The notes below the pieces were generated by a model, which was not told the origin of the DNA, did no database searches, and worked only from the letters and a program-made list of their open reading frames with translations. Both the position numbers and the translations under genes were made by a program. Of a stretch of 64,000 nt of DNA, positions 2,484 through 42,555 are shown piece after piece (positions within the stretch are counted from its first letter, which is position 1; the number at the start of each line of letters is the position of its first letter). This DNA is from Terriglobia bacterium (GTDB taxonomy: Bacteria; Acidobacteriota; Terriglobia; Terriglobales; Acidobacteriaceae), in NCBI GenBank assembly GCA_020072585.1, contig JAIQGL010000016.1:1-64000 (forward strand), read 5' to 3'.

Positions 2484-2569
2484 AGCGCCGCAGGCGCGCC
2501 GAGAAGTTAGCCCAGGGCGTAAGCCCTGGGTAAGCAGAGAAGAAGACCAGAGCGCCGGAGGCGCGACAC
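2484..2569. repeat. REP-type palindromic repeats on the left side of the RAYT gene
   Basis: Two palindromic elements lie here. AGCGCCGCAGGCGCGC is followed by AGTTAGCCCAGGGCGT and its partner AAGCCCTGGGT (a CCCAGGGC/GCCCTGGG hairpin), and then GAGCGCCGGAGGCGCGACAC at 2550-2569. The last 20 bases occur in inverted orientation at 3007-3026 on the other side of the transposase gene. The element is GC-rich, palindromic and extragenic, as expected for REP sequences mobilised by RAYT enzymes. Confidence 0.8.
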
Positions 2570-39064: not shown

Positions 39065-39090
39065 GAAAAAGCCGCTCATTCTGAGCGGCC
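39065..39090 (-). terminator. Attenuator terminator (segments 3 and 4)
   Basis: On the minus strand GCCGCTCA (39089-39082) pairs with TGAGCGGC (39078-39071) around a GAA loop and is followed by TTTTTC (39070-39065). It lies 28 bases after the stop of the leader peptide and 61 bases before the ATP-grasp start. Its 5' arm overlaps the antiterminator arm at 39086-39098, so the two structures exclude each other. Confidence 0.8.
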
Positions 39091-39201
39091 CTTGGTGGTT
39101 GAATCTGAGTCTAAATCCTAAGAAAAATGGCTCACCACCGGCCGCCCGCGTGTACACATACACATACAGCAACACATGGCCATGTTGCTGGCGGAAGCCG
39201 G
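39086..39201 (-). promoter_or_regulatory. Alternative stems of the attenuator (segments 1:2 and 2:3)
   Basis: Segment 1 CCGGCTTCCGCC (39201-39190) can pair with segment 2 GGCGGCCGG (39146-39138) with a three-base bulge. Segment 2, as CGGCCGGTGG (39144-39135), can instead pair with segment 3, CCACCAAGGGCCG (39098-39086), with a three-base AAG bulge: all ten bases match. Segment 3 also forms the terminator stem. The polycysteine codons lie between segments 1 and 2, as required for ribosome-stall control. Pairings were found by eye, not by energy calculation. Confidence 0.65.
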
Positions 39202-39222
39202 GTTGGTAAATGAACGGTGCAT
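39118..39222 (-). CDS. Polycysteine leader peptide of the sulfur-type attenuator
   Basis: The 34-residue ORF begins ATG at 39222, with AGAAGGAT six bases upstream, a strong ribosome-binding site. It encodes MHRSFTNPASASNMAM, then seven codons reading Cys Cys Cys Met Cys Met Cys (39174-39154), then TRGRPVVSHFS and TAG. Five cysteines and five methionines in so short a peptide and the overlap with alternative stems point to a regulatory leader, comparable to polycysteine leaders known from mycobacteria and to trp/his leaders. Cys-tRNA shortage would stall the ribosome at 39160-39174, freeing segment 2 to form the antiterminator. A structural metal-binding peptide cannot be excluded. Confidence 0.72.
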   Translation of the reverse strand: MHRSFTNPASASNMAMCCCMCMCTRGRPVVSHFS

Positions 39223-39621
39223 CTGAAATCCTTCTGATGCTACATGGGGTGAGAGGGAAGAGTCAATACCGAAGTTTTTTAGTATGGAGAGGGGGCGCCG
39301 CAGATCAGTGCGGATGAAACGCAGATCAGAAGGCAGGTATAACCTTACGCGGATAAACATGGATTCGAAAAGAGACCAATTCCGGCTGGCTGCACAGGAC
39401 CAACTTTTCAATTCAGTTCAGATGAAATACAAAAAATTCATTTGCAGAGAAAATGACGACTGGAAAGTGGAAGCTAAGAGTCGATAACTATGTGAGCCGG
39501 TGGGAGATGGTCAAGTTTCTTGCTCTGGCTCGCTCACCATCGCGGGAGCGAATGCCGTGGTGGCCGGGATTCCACATATTGTCAAAGCTTCGGAAATGCC
39601 CAAAGCCAGAGTGGCGCCTGG
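39223..39621. other. Upstream region of the leader and tail of the NnrS-like gene
   Basis: The promoter of the leader-ATP-grasp operon must lie here. TTGACT at 39266-39261 with TAGCAT at 39242-39237 has an 18-base spacing but would put the transcript start inside or after the ribosome-binding site, so it is not accepted. Short open frames here, including one at 39500-39658 on the plus strand, have no family support. Confidence 0.35.
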
Positions 39622-40956
39622 TCAGCCGCGAATGGCGATGGCAGGCTTCATCTGGTGAGCGGGTAGCTGTTTGAATGTTAAAAGCAGGTTCACCGCGAAC
39701 ACGGTCACAGCGATCAACTCACACACTGCGGACCAGGGCAATATTCTCCAGGCCGGAGACCAGTAGTTTTCGTACGCCAGAATCTCGCTGCTTACCCGCA
39801 GACTGCATCCGATGTTCAGCAGCAGCAGGCACGTCAGCATCAATTTTGGACTGTAGAGCACTCGCATTCCCGCAAAGGCAGGCAGTACTCTCTGGCCAAT
39901 GGCGAATACCATGGTTGCAACAAAGCCCACAGTGAGCGCATGGCGCGAAGCGCCAACCCAGCCATTGGCTCGATCCAGATAAGCTGCGCAAATGCCCAGG
40001 CTGGCCGCAAGTAAGAGCCAAAAATAGGCAATTCGAACAAATGCAGGGAATAAAGGATGTACGCCAGTGATTTTGGCCGTTCGTTCGGGCGGTCCTACTA
40101 GGTGAAATGCGCTCACAGCCGCAACTGCGGCCAGAGCAATTACCCAGGCCGCGACATGAGAGAGTCCGGCCTCAGCCAGCACAACTCCGGTGATGCTGAG
40201 CAAAAGAGCGTAACGGAGCACTCGTTCATTCACGGCTTTCAGGCCCAGAAACACCGGCAGCCATCGTGCGCTGAAACCCCACACAGTGGGAACAATGAAC
40301 GCATAGGCCACCAAAGTAAGAAACCTCCCCTCAGAAGACGCTGGGAATTCCGGCCCAATGTTGCGAACGCTTACATACAGTGCAGTCATCAGGTTCATCA
40401 GCAATGCCATGCCAAAACCCGCGGTGCCCACCAGGACTGCAATCATCCAAACTGGTTTACGCTCTTTGGGTTTGTTTGAATCGACCGCGCGATGACTTCT
40501 CACTGAACCGAGAAATATGAGGAAAGCACAAAGCTCAAGCGATGCGGAAAGCGGGAACGATACACGCCAATACAAGTGATAGAAACCTGCGGCCCAGCGG
40601 AGCAGAACGCCGGAGGTCCAGAGCAGCCACGCCGTCCAGGCGAGCACCGCCGGCTGTACTGCGCGCGTAGTCATCTTGGGAATGGAATAGAAACCAATAC
40701 CGAGGATGAATGTTCCAATCCACCCAAAAATCTGGGCGTGTCCGTGGGCTTGGATCCAGCTAGCTGCGATCGTGCCATGCCGCCCGCTGATTGAGATTAG
40801 ATTCCACACGCCCAGGAACGTGCCAGGCAGCAGCATGAAGAACAGCCCTGTGATTGCATAAACCATCATCAATCGCTGGGCGCTCTCCTCCCGTGCCTTG
40901 AGCAGGCTGGCCGGCTCATTCAGCCTGGACTCTTGGATGGTGACTGTTGAGGACAT
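39622..40956 (-). CDS. nnrS: NnrS-like heme/copper membrane protein
   Basis: The 444-residue protein has about 12 hydrophobic helices with HGTIAASWIQAHGHAQIFGW, a His-rich helix, GFYHLYWRV and later SRHALTVGFVATMVFAIGQR, which match NnrS and related membrane proteins linked to nitric-oxide stress. Known NnrS proteins contain heme and copper and protect cells from NO. The gene is five bases after ric on the same strand, so they form an operon. The exact subfamily assignment is by motif only. Confidence 0.7.
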   Translation of the reverse strand: MSSTVTIQESRLNEPASLLKAREESAQRLMMVYAITGLFFMLLPGTFLGVWNLISISGRHGTIAASWIQAHGHAQIFGWIGTFILGIGFYSIPKMTTRAVQPAVLAWTAWLLWTSGVLLRWAAGFYHLYWRVSFPLSASLELCAFLIFLGSVRSHRAVDSNKPKERKPVWMIAVLVGTAGFGMALLMNLMTALYVSVRNIGPEFPASSEGRFLTLVAYAFIVPTVWGFSARWLPVFLGLKAVNERVLRYALLLSITGVVLAEAGLSHVAAWVIALAAVAAVSAFHLVGPPERTAKITGVHPLFPAFVRIAYFWLLLAASLGICAAYLDRANGWVGASRHALTVGFVATMVFAIGQRVLPAFAGMRVLYSPKLMLTCLLLLNIGCSLRVSSEILAYENYWSPAWRILPWSAVCELIAVTVFAVNLLLTFKQLPAHQMKPAIAIRG

Positions 40957-40961
40957 TGCAA

Positions 40962-41693
40962 CTACCCTTCTGCTCCGCCTTCCAAGGCGATCGCACGCGG
41001 AAAAAGGCTATTGTTTTCCAGATGAACATGCTGATGCAGGTCAGCCTCAAACTCTTTCAGAGCGGTATACAACGTTCTGTAGCTGAAACAGCCGTCCTCC
41101 GGGGCCGTGTAGTTAGAGCTGAGAGTGCTGATCTCTTTGAGGGCAGCGCCAGCCGATTCGTGCTCCAACTCCATCATGTGTACCGGATTACCTACGGTGC
41201 CAAAGGCTGGCCTTGGTTTTGCTGTGCCGTTGCTGACGGCTTTTTCCAGAGCAATAATGTGCGGGAACAGAATGTGCTCTTCCTTCATCATATGAGAGGT
41301 GAGCTCGGCGGACATCCCACTGAATGTCTGCTGGATCTTGCCCAGCTCCGGGTGATTTTTTCCATGAACCGATACGACTTTGTTTAGCAGCTGGTGGAGA
41401 CGGGGAAGCTCCTGCTTCACGTATGCATGGTGAGTGGTTACGATGTGCTCGATCAAGCCGCATAACGCACCGTCGAGATCCGGCGAACTCGCCTCAGAGG
41501 GCTGGTTAAAACTGCTGGCTTGTTCCAGAGCACGCAGCACATCCTCAACGGGCACATGCGCCTGCATACAAGCATCGCTCAATGTTTTCGATCCGCCGCA
41601 GCAGTAGTCAATGCCCAGCTTCTCAAAGGCCCTGGTTGCATTGGGGATTCCCGTGGCCAGGTCTCTCACGGTTCTGGTGGCATCGAGATTCAT
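40962..41693 (-). CDS. ric: Iron-sulfur cluster repair di-iron protein (RIC/ScdA/YtfE)
   Basis: The 243-residue protein has the N-terminal DUF542 domain (VRDLATGIPNATRAFEKLGIDYCCGG with its CCGG metal site) and a hemerythrin-like domain with the di-iron ligands: IEHIVTTHHAYVKQELPRLH, MMKEEHILFPH and MELEHESAG, then LHQHVHLENNSLFP. RIC proteins repair Fe-S clusters damaged by nitric oxide or peroxide. The ATG at 41693 follows AAGGAGAAA. A Crp/Fnr-type palindrome lies about 84 bases upstream, and the NnrS-like gene follows within five bases. Confidence 0.92.
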   Translation of the reverse strand: MNLDATRTVRDLATGIPNATRAFEKLGIDYCCGGSKTLSDACMQAHVPVEDVLRALEQASSFNQPSEASSPDLDGALCGLIEHIVTTHHAYVKQELPRLHQLLNKVVSVHGKNHPELGKIQQTFSGMSAELTSHMMKEEHILFPHIIALEKAVSNGTAKPRPAFGTVGNPVHMMELEHESAGAALKEISTLSSNYTAPEDGCFSYRTLYTALKEFEADLHQHVHLENNSLFPRAIALEGGAEG

Positions 41694-41770
41694 GATTTTT
41701 CTCCTTGACAGACTTCGGTGAACTCGAAGCCTCTATGGGCAAGTCTAGGAGAGGGAGGAGAGCAGGCCTA

Positions 41771-41782
41771 TGACTTTTGTCA
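41771..41782. promoter_or_regulatory. Crp/Fnr-type operator upstream of ric
   Basis: TGACTTTTGTCA is a perfect TGAC-N4-GTCA palindrome, the half-site type bound by Crp/Fnr-family proteins. It lies in the 100-bp gap between ric and the Crp/Fnr gene, centred about 84 bases before the ric start, a plausible activator position. Confidence 0.55.
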
Positions 41783-41793
41783 CAGCGAACGCA

Positions 41794-42555
41794 TTATTCG
41801 GAGTTTTCGAGTTCTGCTTGCAGCCGGGGCAGATCGGGGATAGTAACGGTCTTGGCTTCCATGCGTATAAGGTCCTCGGCTTGCAGACGGCTCAAGTTGC
41901 GCGACACCAGTTCCCGCACCGTGCCAATCTCTGATGCCAGCTCCTGATTACTTGGAGGCAGATGGATTTCAATTCCGCCTGGCGTCTTCTTGCCTGCCTT
42001 GGCGAGACGAACCAGGACTGAGATAAGCCTGGAGCGGACAGTTGTAAAAGAAAGTTCTTCAATTATCCCGACCAGTTTACGTAACCGGGCACCGACAACC
42101 TTGAGGACCTTGAGAGGGACCTGGGGATGGACCAGGCAAAGAGAATGAAAGTCCGGCTTGCTGATGAAATAGATTCGGGCATCACCGGCGGCCGCTGTGG
42201 ATGCGGGATAAGTGCCACCATCGAAAAGTGGCAGTTCGGCCACCGAACTGCCTGGGCCCTCAATGGACAATATTTGCTCGCGGCCATTTGGCGAGCTCTT
42301 GAAAATCCGCACATTGCCACTCTCAACGATAAACAGGCCCGTGCAGGCGTCACCTTCCGTGAACAGCAGCTCGCCTTTGCTGTAATTGCGAGGCACGGCA
42401 CGCTCGGCGAGAAACTGAAGTTCAGTTTCCGTGAGCCCATGAAAGATAGGAACGCGTCGAAGAATCTCTAAAGCATTTGGTGCGGGAGGCATTGACTGAT
42501 ATTGTAAACTGCCGCTGAGTAATGTTTCTGGCAAGGCACAAACGGGGCAGATCAT
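41794..42555 (-). CDS. Crp/Fnr-family transcriptional regulator
   Basis: The protein (253 residues from ATG 42555) has a cyclic-nucleotide-binding-like domain (EILRRVPIFHGLTETELQFL, FTEGDACTGLFIVESGNVRI and LPLFDGGTYPASTAAAGDA) and a C-terminal winged helix (SNQELASEIGTVRELVSRNL). It lacks the four Fnr cluster cysteines, though a CPVC pair sits at the very N-terminus. The start at 42555 overlaps the upstream glycosyltransferase stop (ATGA); ATG 42492 would start nearer the family N-terminus. Beside ric and nnrS it resembles DNR/NnrR-type sensors of NO, an inference supported by a matching palindrome. Confidence 0.85.
   Translation of the reverse strand: MICPVCALPETLLSGSLQYQSMPPAPNALEILRRVPIFHGLTETELQFLAERAVPRNYSKGELLFTEGDACTGLFIVESGNVRIFKSSPNGREQILSIEGPGSSVAELPLFDGGTYPASTAAAGDARIYFISKPDFHSLCLVHPQVPLKVLKVVGARLRKLVGIIEELSFTTVRSRLISVLVRLAKAGKKTPGGIEIHLPPSNQELASEIGTVRELVSRNLSRLQAEDLIRMEAKTVTIPDLPRLQAELENSE

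Follow-up and report, generated by a model that had tools for sequence, protein, structure and literature searches.

Why should a short reading frame with a dense run of cysteine and methionine codons stand ahead of an ATP-grasp/monooxygenase operon in an acidobacterium? The initial annotation of the window, that is, the whole 64,000-nucleotide stretch of Terriglobia DNA analyzed here, read this frame as the leader peptide of a trp/his-type attenuator with cysteine codons as the sensor. We find that the leader is very probably a ribosome-mediated transcription attenuator, a reading supported by conservation of the leader, by the match between leaders and their own terminators, and by leaders of the same build that precede metY, cysD, and hom in related bacteria.

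The leader and its alternative RNA helices

The minus-strand frame of 34 codons is present as annotated, and the CCCMCMC run, with 5 Cys and 2 Met within seven codons, lies exactly where it had been placed (Table 1). Among the 923 ORFs of 15 to 60 codons in the 64-kb window, two hold at least 5 Cys in 9 codons; the second (18081, minus strand; VPGRGAGCCCCPFCVCDVRGSFC) is an artefact that runs antisense to the Gln run of a 945-codon ORF. No Rfam family, known sulfur riboswitches included, reaches its gathering score for the window leader or the loci of 19 relatives, and the single match to the leader at E up to 1 is a weak one to an lncRNA family (E 0.77). Acido-Lenti-1 RNA (RF01687) occurs elsewhere in the window (2484-2530, minus strand, 48.6 bits) and also in a relative from the same genus, near the operon (L027, 82-127, plus strand, 41.9 bits).

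Table 1. Features of the leader and its operon in the window
Feature	Positions	Strand	Details
-35-like box TTGACT	39266-39261	-	TTGAC 40-44 nt before the start codon in 9/9 genus leaders
-10-like box TAGCAT	39242-39237	-	18 nt past the -35 box, 14 nt before the ATG
Leader peptide ORF MHRSFTNPASASNMAMCCCMCMCTRGRPVVSHFS	39222-39118	-	34 codons + TAG
Segment 1	39202-39188 (about)	-	pairs with segment 2 (1:2); MFE fold
Sensor codons Cys Cys Cys Met Cys Met Cys	39174-39154	-	Cys/Met cluster conserved in the genus
Segment 2, antiterminator 5' arm	39147-39131	-	lies inside the ORF's final codons
Segment 3 (3' arm of the antiterminator, 5' arm of the terminator)	39103-39083	-	constrained folds, duplex energy
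Intrinsic terminator AAGGGCCGCTCA-GAA-TGAGCGGCTTTT + U run (segments 3 + 4)	39093-39066	-	-16.8 kcal/mol
ATP-grasp protein (RimK-like), first gene of the operon	39003-38038	-	PF08443, E 3.1e-8
FMN-dependent luciferase-like monooxygenase (SfnG/SsuD-like)	38038-36992	-	PF00296, E 2.1e-66

Both helices on which the switch depends are found in the window. The pairing of segments 2 and 3, put at ten bases in the initial annotation, proves even longer, with 17 interrupted pairs and -28.0 kcal/mol, and the annotated terminator of segments 3 and 4 with its T run is present as a G+C-rich hairpin that begins 24 nt past the leader stop codon. The 181-nt leader as a whole folds at -67.4 kcal/mol, compared with -50.2 +/- 3.9 kcal/mol for 200 shuffles (z -4.45), none of which is as low.

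Folding the leader under ribosome constraints, a form of the masked folding that the initial annotation had proposed, gives the expected alternation. With the ribosome assumed to cover 18 nt upstream and 11-12 nt downstream of the first A-site base, the expected pairs in 2:3 and 3:4 are 14.6 and 0.07 when the A site is at the first Cys codon, and 14.4 and 0.21 at the second. The third (9.5 and 3.8) and fourth (9.2 and 4.0) Cys codons still give more 2:3 pairs, the two helices are near equal at the last one (6.6 vs. 7.6), and a ribosome at the stop codon yields the terminator (0.17 and 10.2). Without a ribosome the fold model gives a mixture, 3.3 pairs in 2:3 and 8.3 in 3:4.

The TTGAC of the -35-like box recurs in other leaders, 35-38 nt before the start codon in 16 of the 19 metY leaders with enough upstream sequence, and overall at such spacing in 26/47 leaders compared with 1.07% of control positions (512 of 48,000 random positions in the same loci). 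It is found in none of the 12 leaders of family f7, five of which carry TATACT 9 nt before the start. The start codons were picked by us, and for some of the f7 leaders the promoter was taken into account in doing so. From standard promoter geometry, the start codon would lie at the 5' end of the transcript in metY leaders and about 4-8 nt inside it in the genus, and the window transcript would start about 8 nt before the ATG at most. The initial annotation had credited the leader with a strong ribosome-binding site, an assignment we do not retain: the AAGGA concerned sits between the -10-like box and the ATG, and the eight further genus leaders do not show it. Because promoter spacing would place the start codon no more than about 8 nt into the transcript, this AAGGA is probably left untranscribed or transcribed in part only, and initiation on the leader is probably leaderless or nearly so, rather than led by a Shine-Dalgarno sequence. 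A passage in an earlier genome survey gives 13.3% as the average share of genes predicted to be leaderless in three Acidobacteria genomes (PMC3160421), and such a mode is therefore not unusual there.

Conservation before the ATP-grasp operon and beyond it

The ATP-grasp gene starts about 60 nt past the terminator, and the ATG of the monooxygenase gene overlaps its end. The closest profiles of the monooxygenase are SfnG and SsuD, both under cut-off (261.9 bits to TIGR04021 SfnG vs. 382.95), and its best solved relatives are 3rao, a putative luciferase-like monooxygenase, and 8vw6, named alkanesulfonate monooxygenase; for the ATP-grasp protein, solved structures offer weak relatives only, RimK-like and similar ones. 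The sulfur link of this operon is by homology only, of the monooxygenase to SfnG and SsuD and of its partner in Gemmatimonadota to SsuE, and sulfur scavenging is its probable role. Upstream of the leader (39622-42555, minus strand) lie genes for a Crp/Fnr-type regulator, a RIC di-iron repair protein, and an NnrS-like membrane protein, which together resemble a nitric-oxide stress cluster.

The leader precedes the same operon in all nine examined genomes of the genus, with the monooxygenase gene next in 9/9. A leader-peptide profile (A2) built from 11 rows, 7 of them from this genus including the window leader, so that matches to those rows arise by construction, gives one good match per genus genome (9/9, E <= 7.8e-6), every one at the ATP-grasp operon, and the next best match has E 0.069. 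The window genome yields its own leader (E 1.3e-13); the sole other match there (E 1.17) was rejected as a second copy. The Cys run and both alternative helices, whose conservation in related operons the initial annotation had named as a check, are kept in all nine genus genomes and recur in other families and in Gemmatimonadota.

ATP-grasp relatives were found in 129 of 399 genomes of the class and, separately, at 22 loci on named contigs, and we surveyed 110 of the class loci (L001, L025-L133; further match rows stand outside this count). At 16 of the 110, a 9-codon stretch of the leader holds at least 4 Cys and a terminator follows, and two others (L030, L036) combine 3 Cys with a terminator. 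The remaining 92, and with them most homologous ATP-grasp genes of the class, have no accepted leader, 26 of them read by eye and the others by scan, with just 123 nt of upstream sequence at L123; this counts against the attenuator reading. Where the ATP-grasp protein is at least 57% identical, the monooxygenase gene is next in 71/75 loci, compared with 0/35 below that value, and those 35 lower-identity loci (L099-L133) hold no accepted leader. Leader-bearing loci have the monooxygenase gene behind the ATP-grasp gene in 12/12 cases in family f7 and 2/2 in f10, and a profile search added an operon with leader from another genus of the window's family (L212). A nucleotide pattern of the sensor region, with at most 1 mismatch, has five matches in the 399 class genomes, which precede this operon (2), metY-like genes (2), and a cysD-like gene (1); the reversed pattern has none. 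The profile search of the phylum sample gave accepted leaders in 3/396 genomes (G000, G143, G147), the other 7 of the 10 matched genomes being treated as chance. Among 89 genomes of f7, the nine strongest profile matches (E <= 5.1e-5), eight of them rows of the profile, all lie at the ATP-grasp operon, and weaker matches were not accepted. At one f7 locus (L056) the ATP-grasp and monooxygenase genes have a leader and a terminator of their own and sit between the genes for tRNA (guanine-1)-methyltransferase and ribosomal protein L19; by eye, several f7 loci without a leader (L057 and L066-L073 compared) seem to have the same methyltransferase gene upstream.

The operon takes a different form in Gemmatimonadota, where 8/11 loci start with a gene for an SsuE-like FMN reductase (L011, 143.8 bits vs. 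a cut-off of 164.05; the other seven 80-95% identical to L011). A Cys leader with terminator stands before ssuE in all eight, and two further loci (L016, L021) have a leader before the ATP-grasp gene, giving 10/11 overall; L014 has a weak candidate only, and in L010 and L023 the clusters of the leaders contain no more than 1-2 Cys. The monooxygenase gene follows in 10/11 loci, at L020 by a partial match, and the sequence of L014 ends too early. Fusions suspected from the ORF lists, ATP-grasp/monooxygenase in L016 and ssuE/ATP-grasp in L011, were discarded, the frames being different. No Cys leader with terminator was found in the single relatives from a Ferruginibacter bin and a Desulfosarcina bin, nor at L009. 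The Desulfosarcina locus (L024, 4593-6201) has a 43% identical ATP-grasp gene followed by an FMN reductase gene. In a Longimicrobiaceae bin (L014, 2807-5993), the ATP-grasp gene comes after genes of the PALP (PLP-dependent enzyme) and conserved hypothetical 698 families, neighbors that may be linked to sulfur.

We further find such leaders before other genes. A search of 396 genomes of the phylum pointed us to L158, in which MSLDAHNSTMAMCICMCICGRGLWVPSRERSN is the leader ahead of a metY gene (homocysteine synthase/O-acetylhomoserine sulfhydrylase family). Within the window's family (f1), 15 of 16 metY loci, 76-100% identical to the L158 gene and counted without three more distant matches at 54-55% identity, have a Cys/Met leader with terminator; three of these leaders were graded weak (L177, L178, L181), one is cut by a contig edge (L175), and the sixteenth locus (L170) has no leader. 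Outside the family, 0/14 metY loci (L182-L195; 10 read by eye, the others by Cys scan) have an accepted leader, and the window genome has no metY relative at E <= 1e-100. The profile search of 130 family genomes matched 34, of which 22 have accepted leaders, 10 look like chance, and L216 and L221 are likewise not among the accepted. Family and f7 profile matches were inspected at 41 loci, with the other weak matches left out (L248, L250, L252, L253, L255, L258, and rows that had no locus among them). Leaders before cysD were seen in two genomes, one scanned with the start of cysN next (L215) and one alike by eye (L211); a similar leader lies at a contig edge (L218), and a single genome has a leader before the homoserine dehydrogenase gene hom (L220). 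Since similar leaders precede metY, cysD, and once hom, we tie them to sulfur amino-acid supply.

Complementarity between each leader and its own terminator was assessed by swapping. Native antiterminator duplexes average -22.96 kcal/mol over 48 leaders vs. -17.59 kcal/mol when swapped, with 0/20,000 permutations as good, although the leaders are related and permutation counts overstate their independence. The separate groups give 0/20,000 (metY, 20 leaders), p 0.0006 (f7, 12), and p 0.013 (genus, 9), and the 23 divergent leaders again 0/20,000. Kinship alone should not produce arm complementarity. A leader's own terminator ranks first in 7/48 cases and among the best ten in 31/48; for the two f10 leaders it ranks 37 and 45, leaving their antiterminator match unsupported. 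Native and swapped energies hardly differ in the eight Gemmatimonadota ssuE leaders (-30.6 vs. -29.3 in direct comparison), because their terminators are nearly alike. The remaining helix, 1:2, fares unevenly: the annotated segments exist, and their pairing is supported in genus leaders (246/20,000 permutations as good in the nine) and metY leaders (1/20,000), but family f7 lends it no support (14,396/20,000).

Compensatory changes, which the initial annotation had suggested looking for, are absent from the ATP-grasp leaders: pair counts in an alignment of 16 (A5) show no double change in 2:3 or 3:4, a further point against the reading. The cores of these helices hardly vary, with 91.4% of cells paired vs. 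27-44% when slid, which explains the lack of changes on both sides. The metY leaders were examined with the alignment-free swap test instead of pair counts, as MAFFT left their segment 2 unaligned. In L027 the tail of the leader is in a different frame from that of the other genus leaders (MGRATGDA) and yet GCGAGCGACCGGTG, its segment 2, is largely kept, as expected if selection acts on the RNA and not on the tail peptide. A hairpin with a T-rich tail was called in 48/48 leader rows, counting the wrong hairpin at L068 (the right one was located separately) and part of a hairpin only at L180. The gap from stop codon to terminator is 17-34 nt in 46/48 rows, the exceptions being L021 (44 nt) and the miscalled L068.

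Proposed mechanism, alternatives, and the amino acid sensed

For the transcript start, stalling, termination, read-through, and operon chemistry we infer the following course. RNA polymerase would initiate at the leader AUG or just a few bases upstream of it, with a ribosome beginning close to the 5' end of the transcript. With ample charged Cys-tRNA the ribosome would reach UAG and cover part of segment 2, segment 3 would pair with segment 4, and transcription would end at the U run. When Cys-tRNA, and possibly Met-tRNA, is short, the ribosome would stall in CCCMCMC and leave segment 2 free, 2:3 would form, and the polymerase would read on into the ATP-grasp and monooxygenase genes, whose products most likely act on an organic sulfur compound, freeing or processing its sulfur.

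A Cys-rich short ORF that adjoins genes for an ATP-grasp protein and a flavin enzyme might also encode a RiPP precursor that the two proteins modify, and the ATP-grasp protein does have a weak match to TIGR04187, the ATP-grasp ribosomal peptide maturase (34 bits vs. a cut-off of 350). We regard this as extremely improbable because like leaders precede metY, cysD, and hom; in addition, peptide sequences beyond the Cys/Met cluster vary from group to group, the frame of the L027 tail has changed around a largely kept segment 2, and a terminator follows the stop codon at close to fixed distance in nearly all rows. Quite unlikely, too, is that the leader works by way of Rho-dependent termination or of first-gene translation, the hairpin being no more than an incidental terminator. 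Rho has been suggested for mycobacterial cys operons, in which, according to passages of PMC1262725, no conserved terminator hairpins lie behind the Cys leaders. Here, however, a G+C-rich hairpin with a U run stands at near-constant distance from the stop codon, and it matches a stretch within the ORF found at that locus.

Within the attenuator reading, we take cysteine to be the main signal in the window, with methionine possible. Sensing of methionine, or of both amino acids jointly so that stalling at either gives read-through, would account for the alternation of Met with Cys codons and for the leader before hom, and, the start itself not counted, Met accounts for 11.8% of the residues of genus leaders and 14.3% of those of metY leaders. 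The Cys:Met ratio moreover shifts from 131:59 in 25 ATP-grasp operon leaders to 59:86 in 21 metY and hom leaders (Fisher p 2.7e-7, a value that overstates independence, the leaders being related). Cys nonetheless fills five of the seven sensor codons in the window, f7 leaders are Cys-heavy (6.0 Cys and 1.2 Met each), and constraints on the RNA, in the ATGGCCATGTG hairpin, may account in part for the retention of the Met codons. Overall, we consider sensing of methionine, by itself or jointly with cysteine, possible, if on the doubtful side.

Relation to known attenuators

In trp/his attenuators, a leader peptide with clustered codons and four RNA segments form mutually exclusive antiterminator and terminator helices. 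The window shares the clustered codons, segments 1-4, and the exclusive pair of helices, and differs in its Cys/Met codons, its probably leaderless or near-leaderless initiation, and a 1:2 helix that is not general. In our reading the leaders work like the trp/his attenuator, what is new being the leaderless-type starts together with Cys/Met codons.

Cys leaders were predicted earlier before actinobacterial cys/cbs genes, as passages of PMC1262725 describe, and leaderless polycysteine short ORFs before sulfur genes, with a proposed cysteine response, have been described in mycobacteria (Canestrari et al. 2020; passages in PMC9031893, PMC9094748, PMC13236596). By these accounts, the mycobacterial ORFs resemble the window in their Cys-codon runs, their shortness, their position before sulfur genes, and the proposed response, and they have a leaderless start (2020 work). 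The passages of PMC1262725 present the mycobacterial cys leaders without a conserved terminator hairpin, in contrast to the terminator/antiterminator switch of the window leaders, which also differ in interleaved Met codons, in the genes they precede, and in their phyla, Acidobacteriota and Gemmatimonadota. The uORFC-8-2 motif upstream of cysS in Rhodobacterales, for which ribosome-mediated attenuation was proposed in the sections of PMC8632094 consulted, likewise joins an upstream ORF with Cys codons to an intrinsic terminator. As described there, it occurs only before cysS in one alphaproteobacterial order, has two tandem Cys codons, and shows two prominent stems, the first holding the Cys codons, whereas the first gene in the window encodes an ATP-grasp protein. 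In the titles, abstract openings, and passages that we read in the open full-text literature, a body of text that excludes subscription journals and preprints, attenuators of this kind were described for neither Acidobacteriota nor Gemmatimonadota.

A broader proposal, to which we give slightly less than an even chance, is that these leaders form a new leaderless attenuator family that reads Cys and Met together, with a Cys:Met ratio tuned to the downstream product. In both Acidobacteriota and Gemmatimonadota they would constitute a sulfur amino-acid regulon that lacks a protein regulator, and they would mark the ATP-grasp/monooxygenase operon, in some cases with SsuE, as an undescribed organosulfur salvage route. 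The leaders define a Cys/Met switch in two soil phyla in which initiation that is probably leaderless is combined with a classical terminator switch. They tie the ATP-grasp/monooxygenase operon to sulfur supply, making its substrate testable, and the leader motif offers a means to find sulfur-starvation genes in uncultured bacteria.
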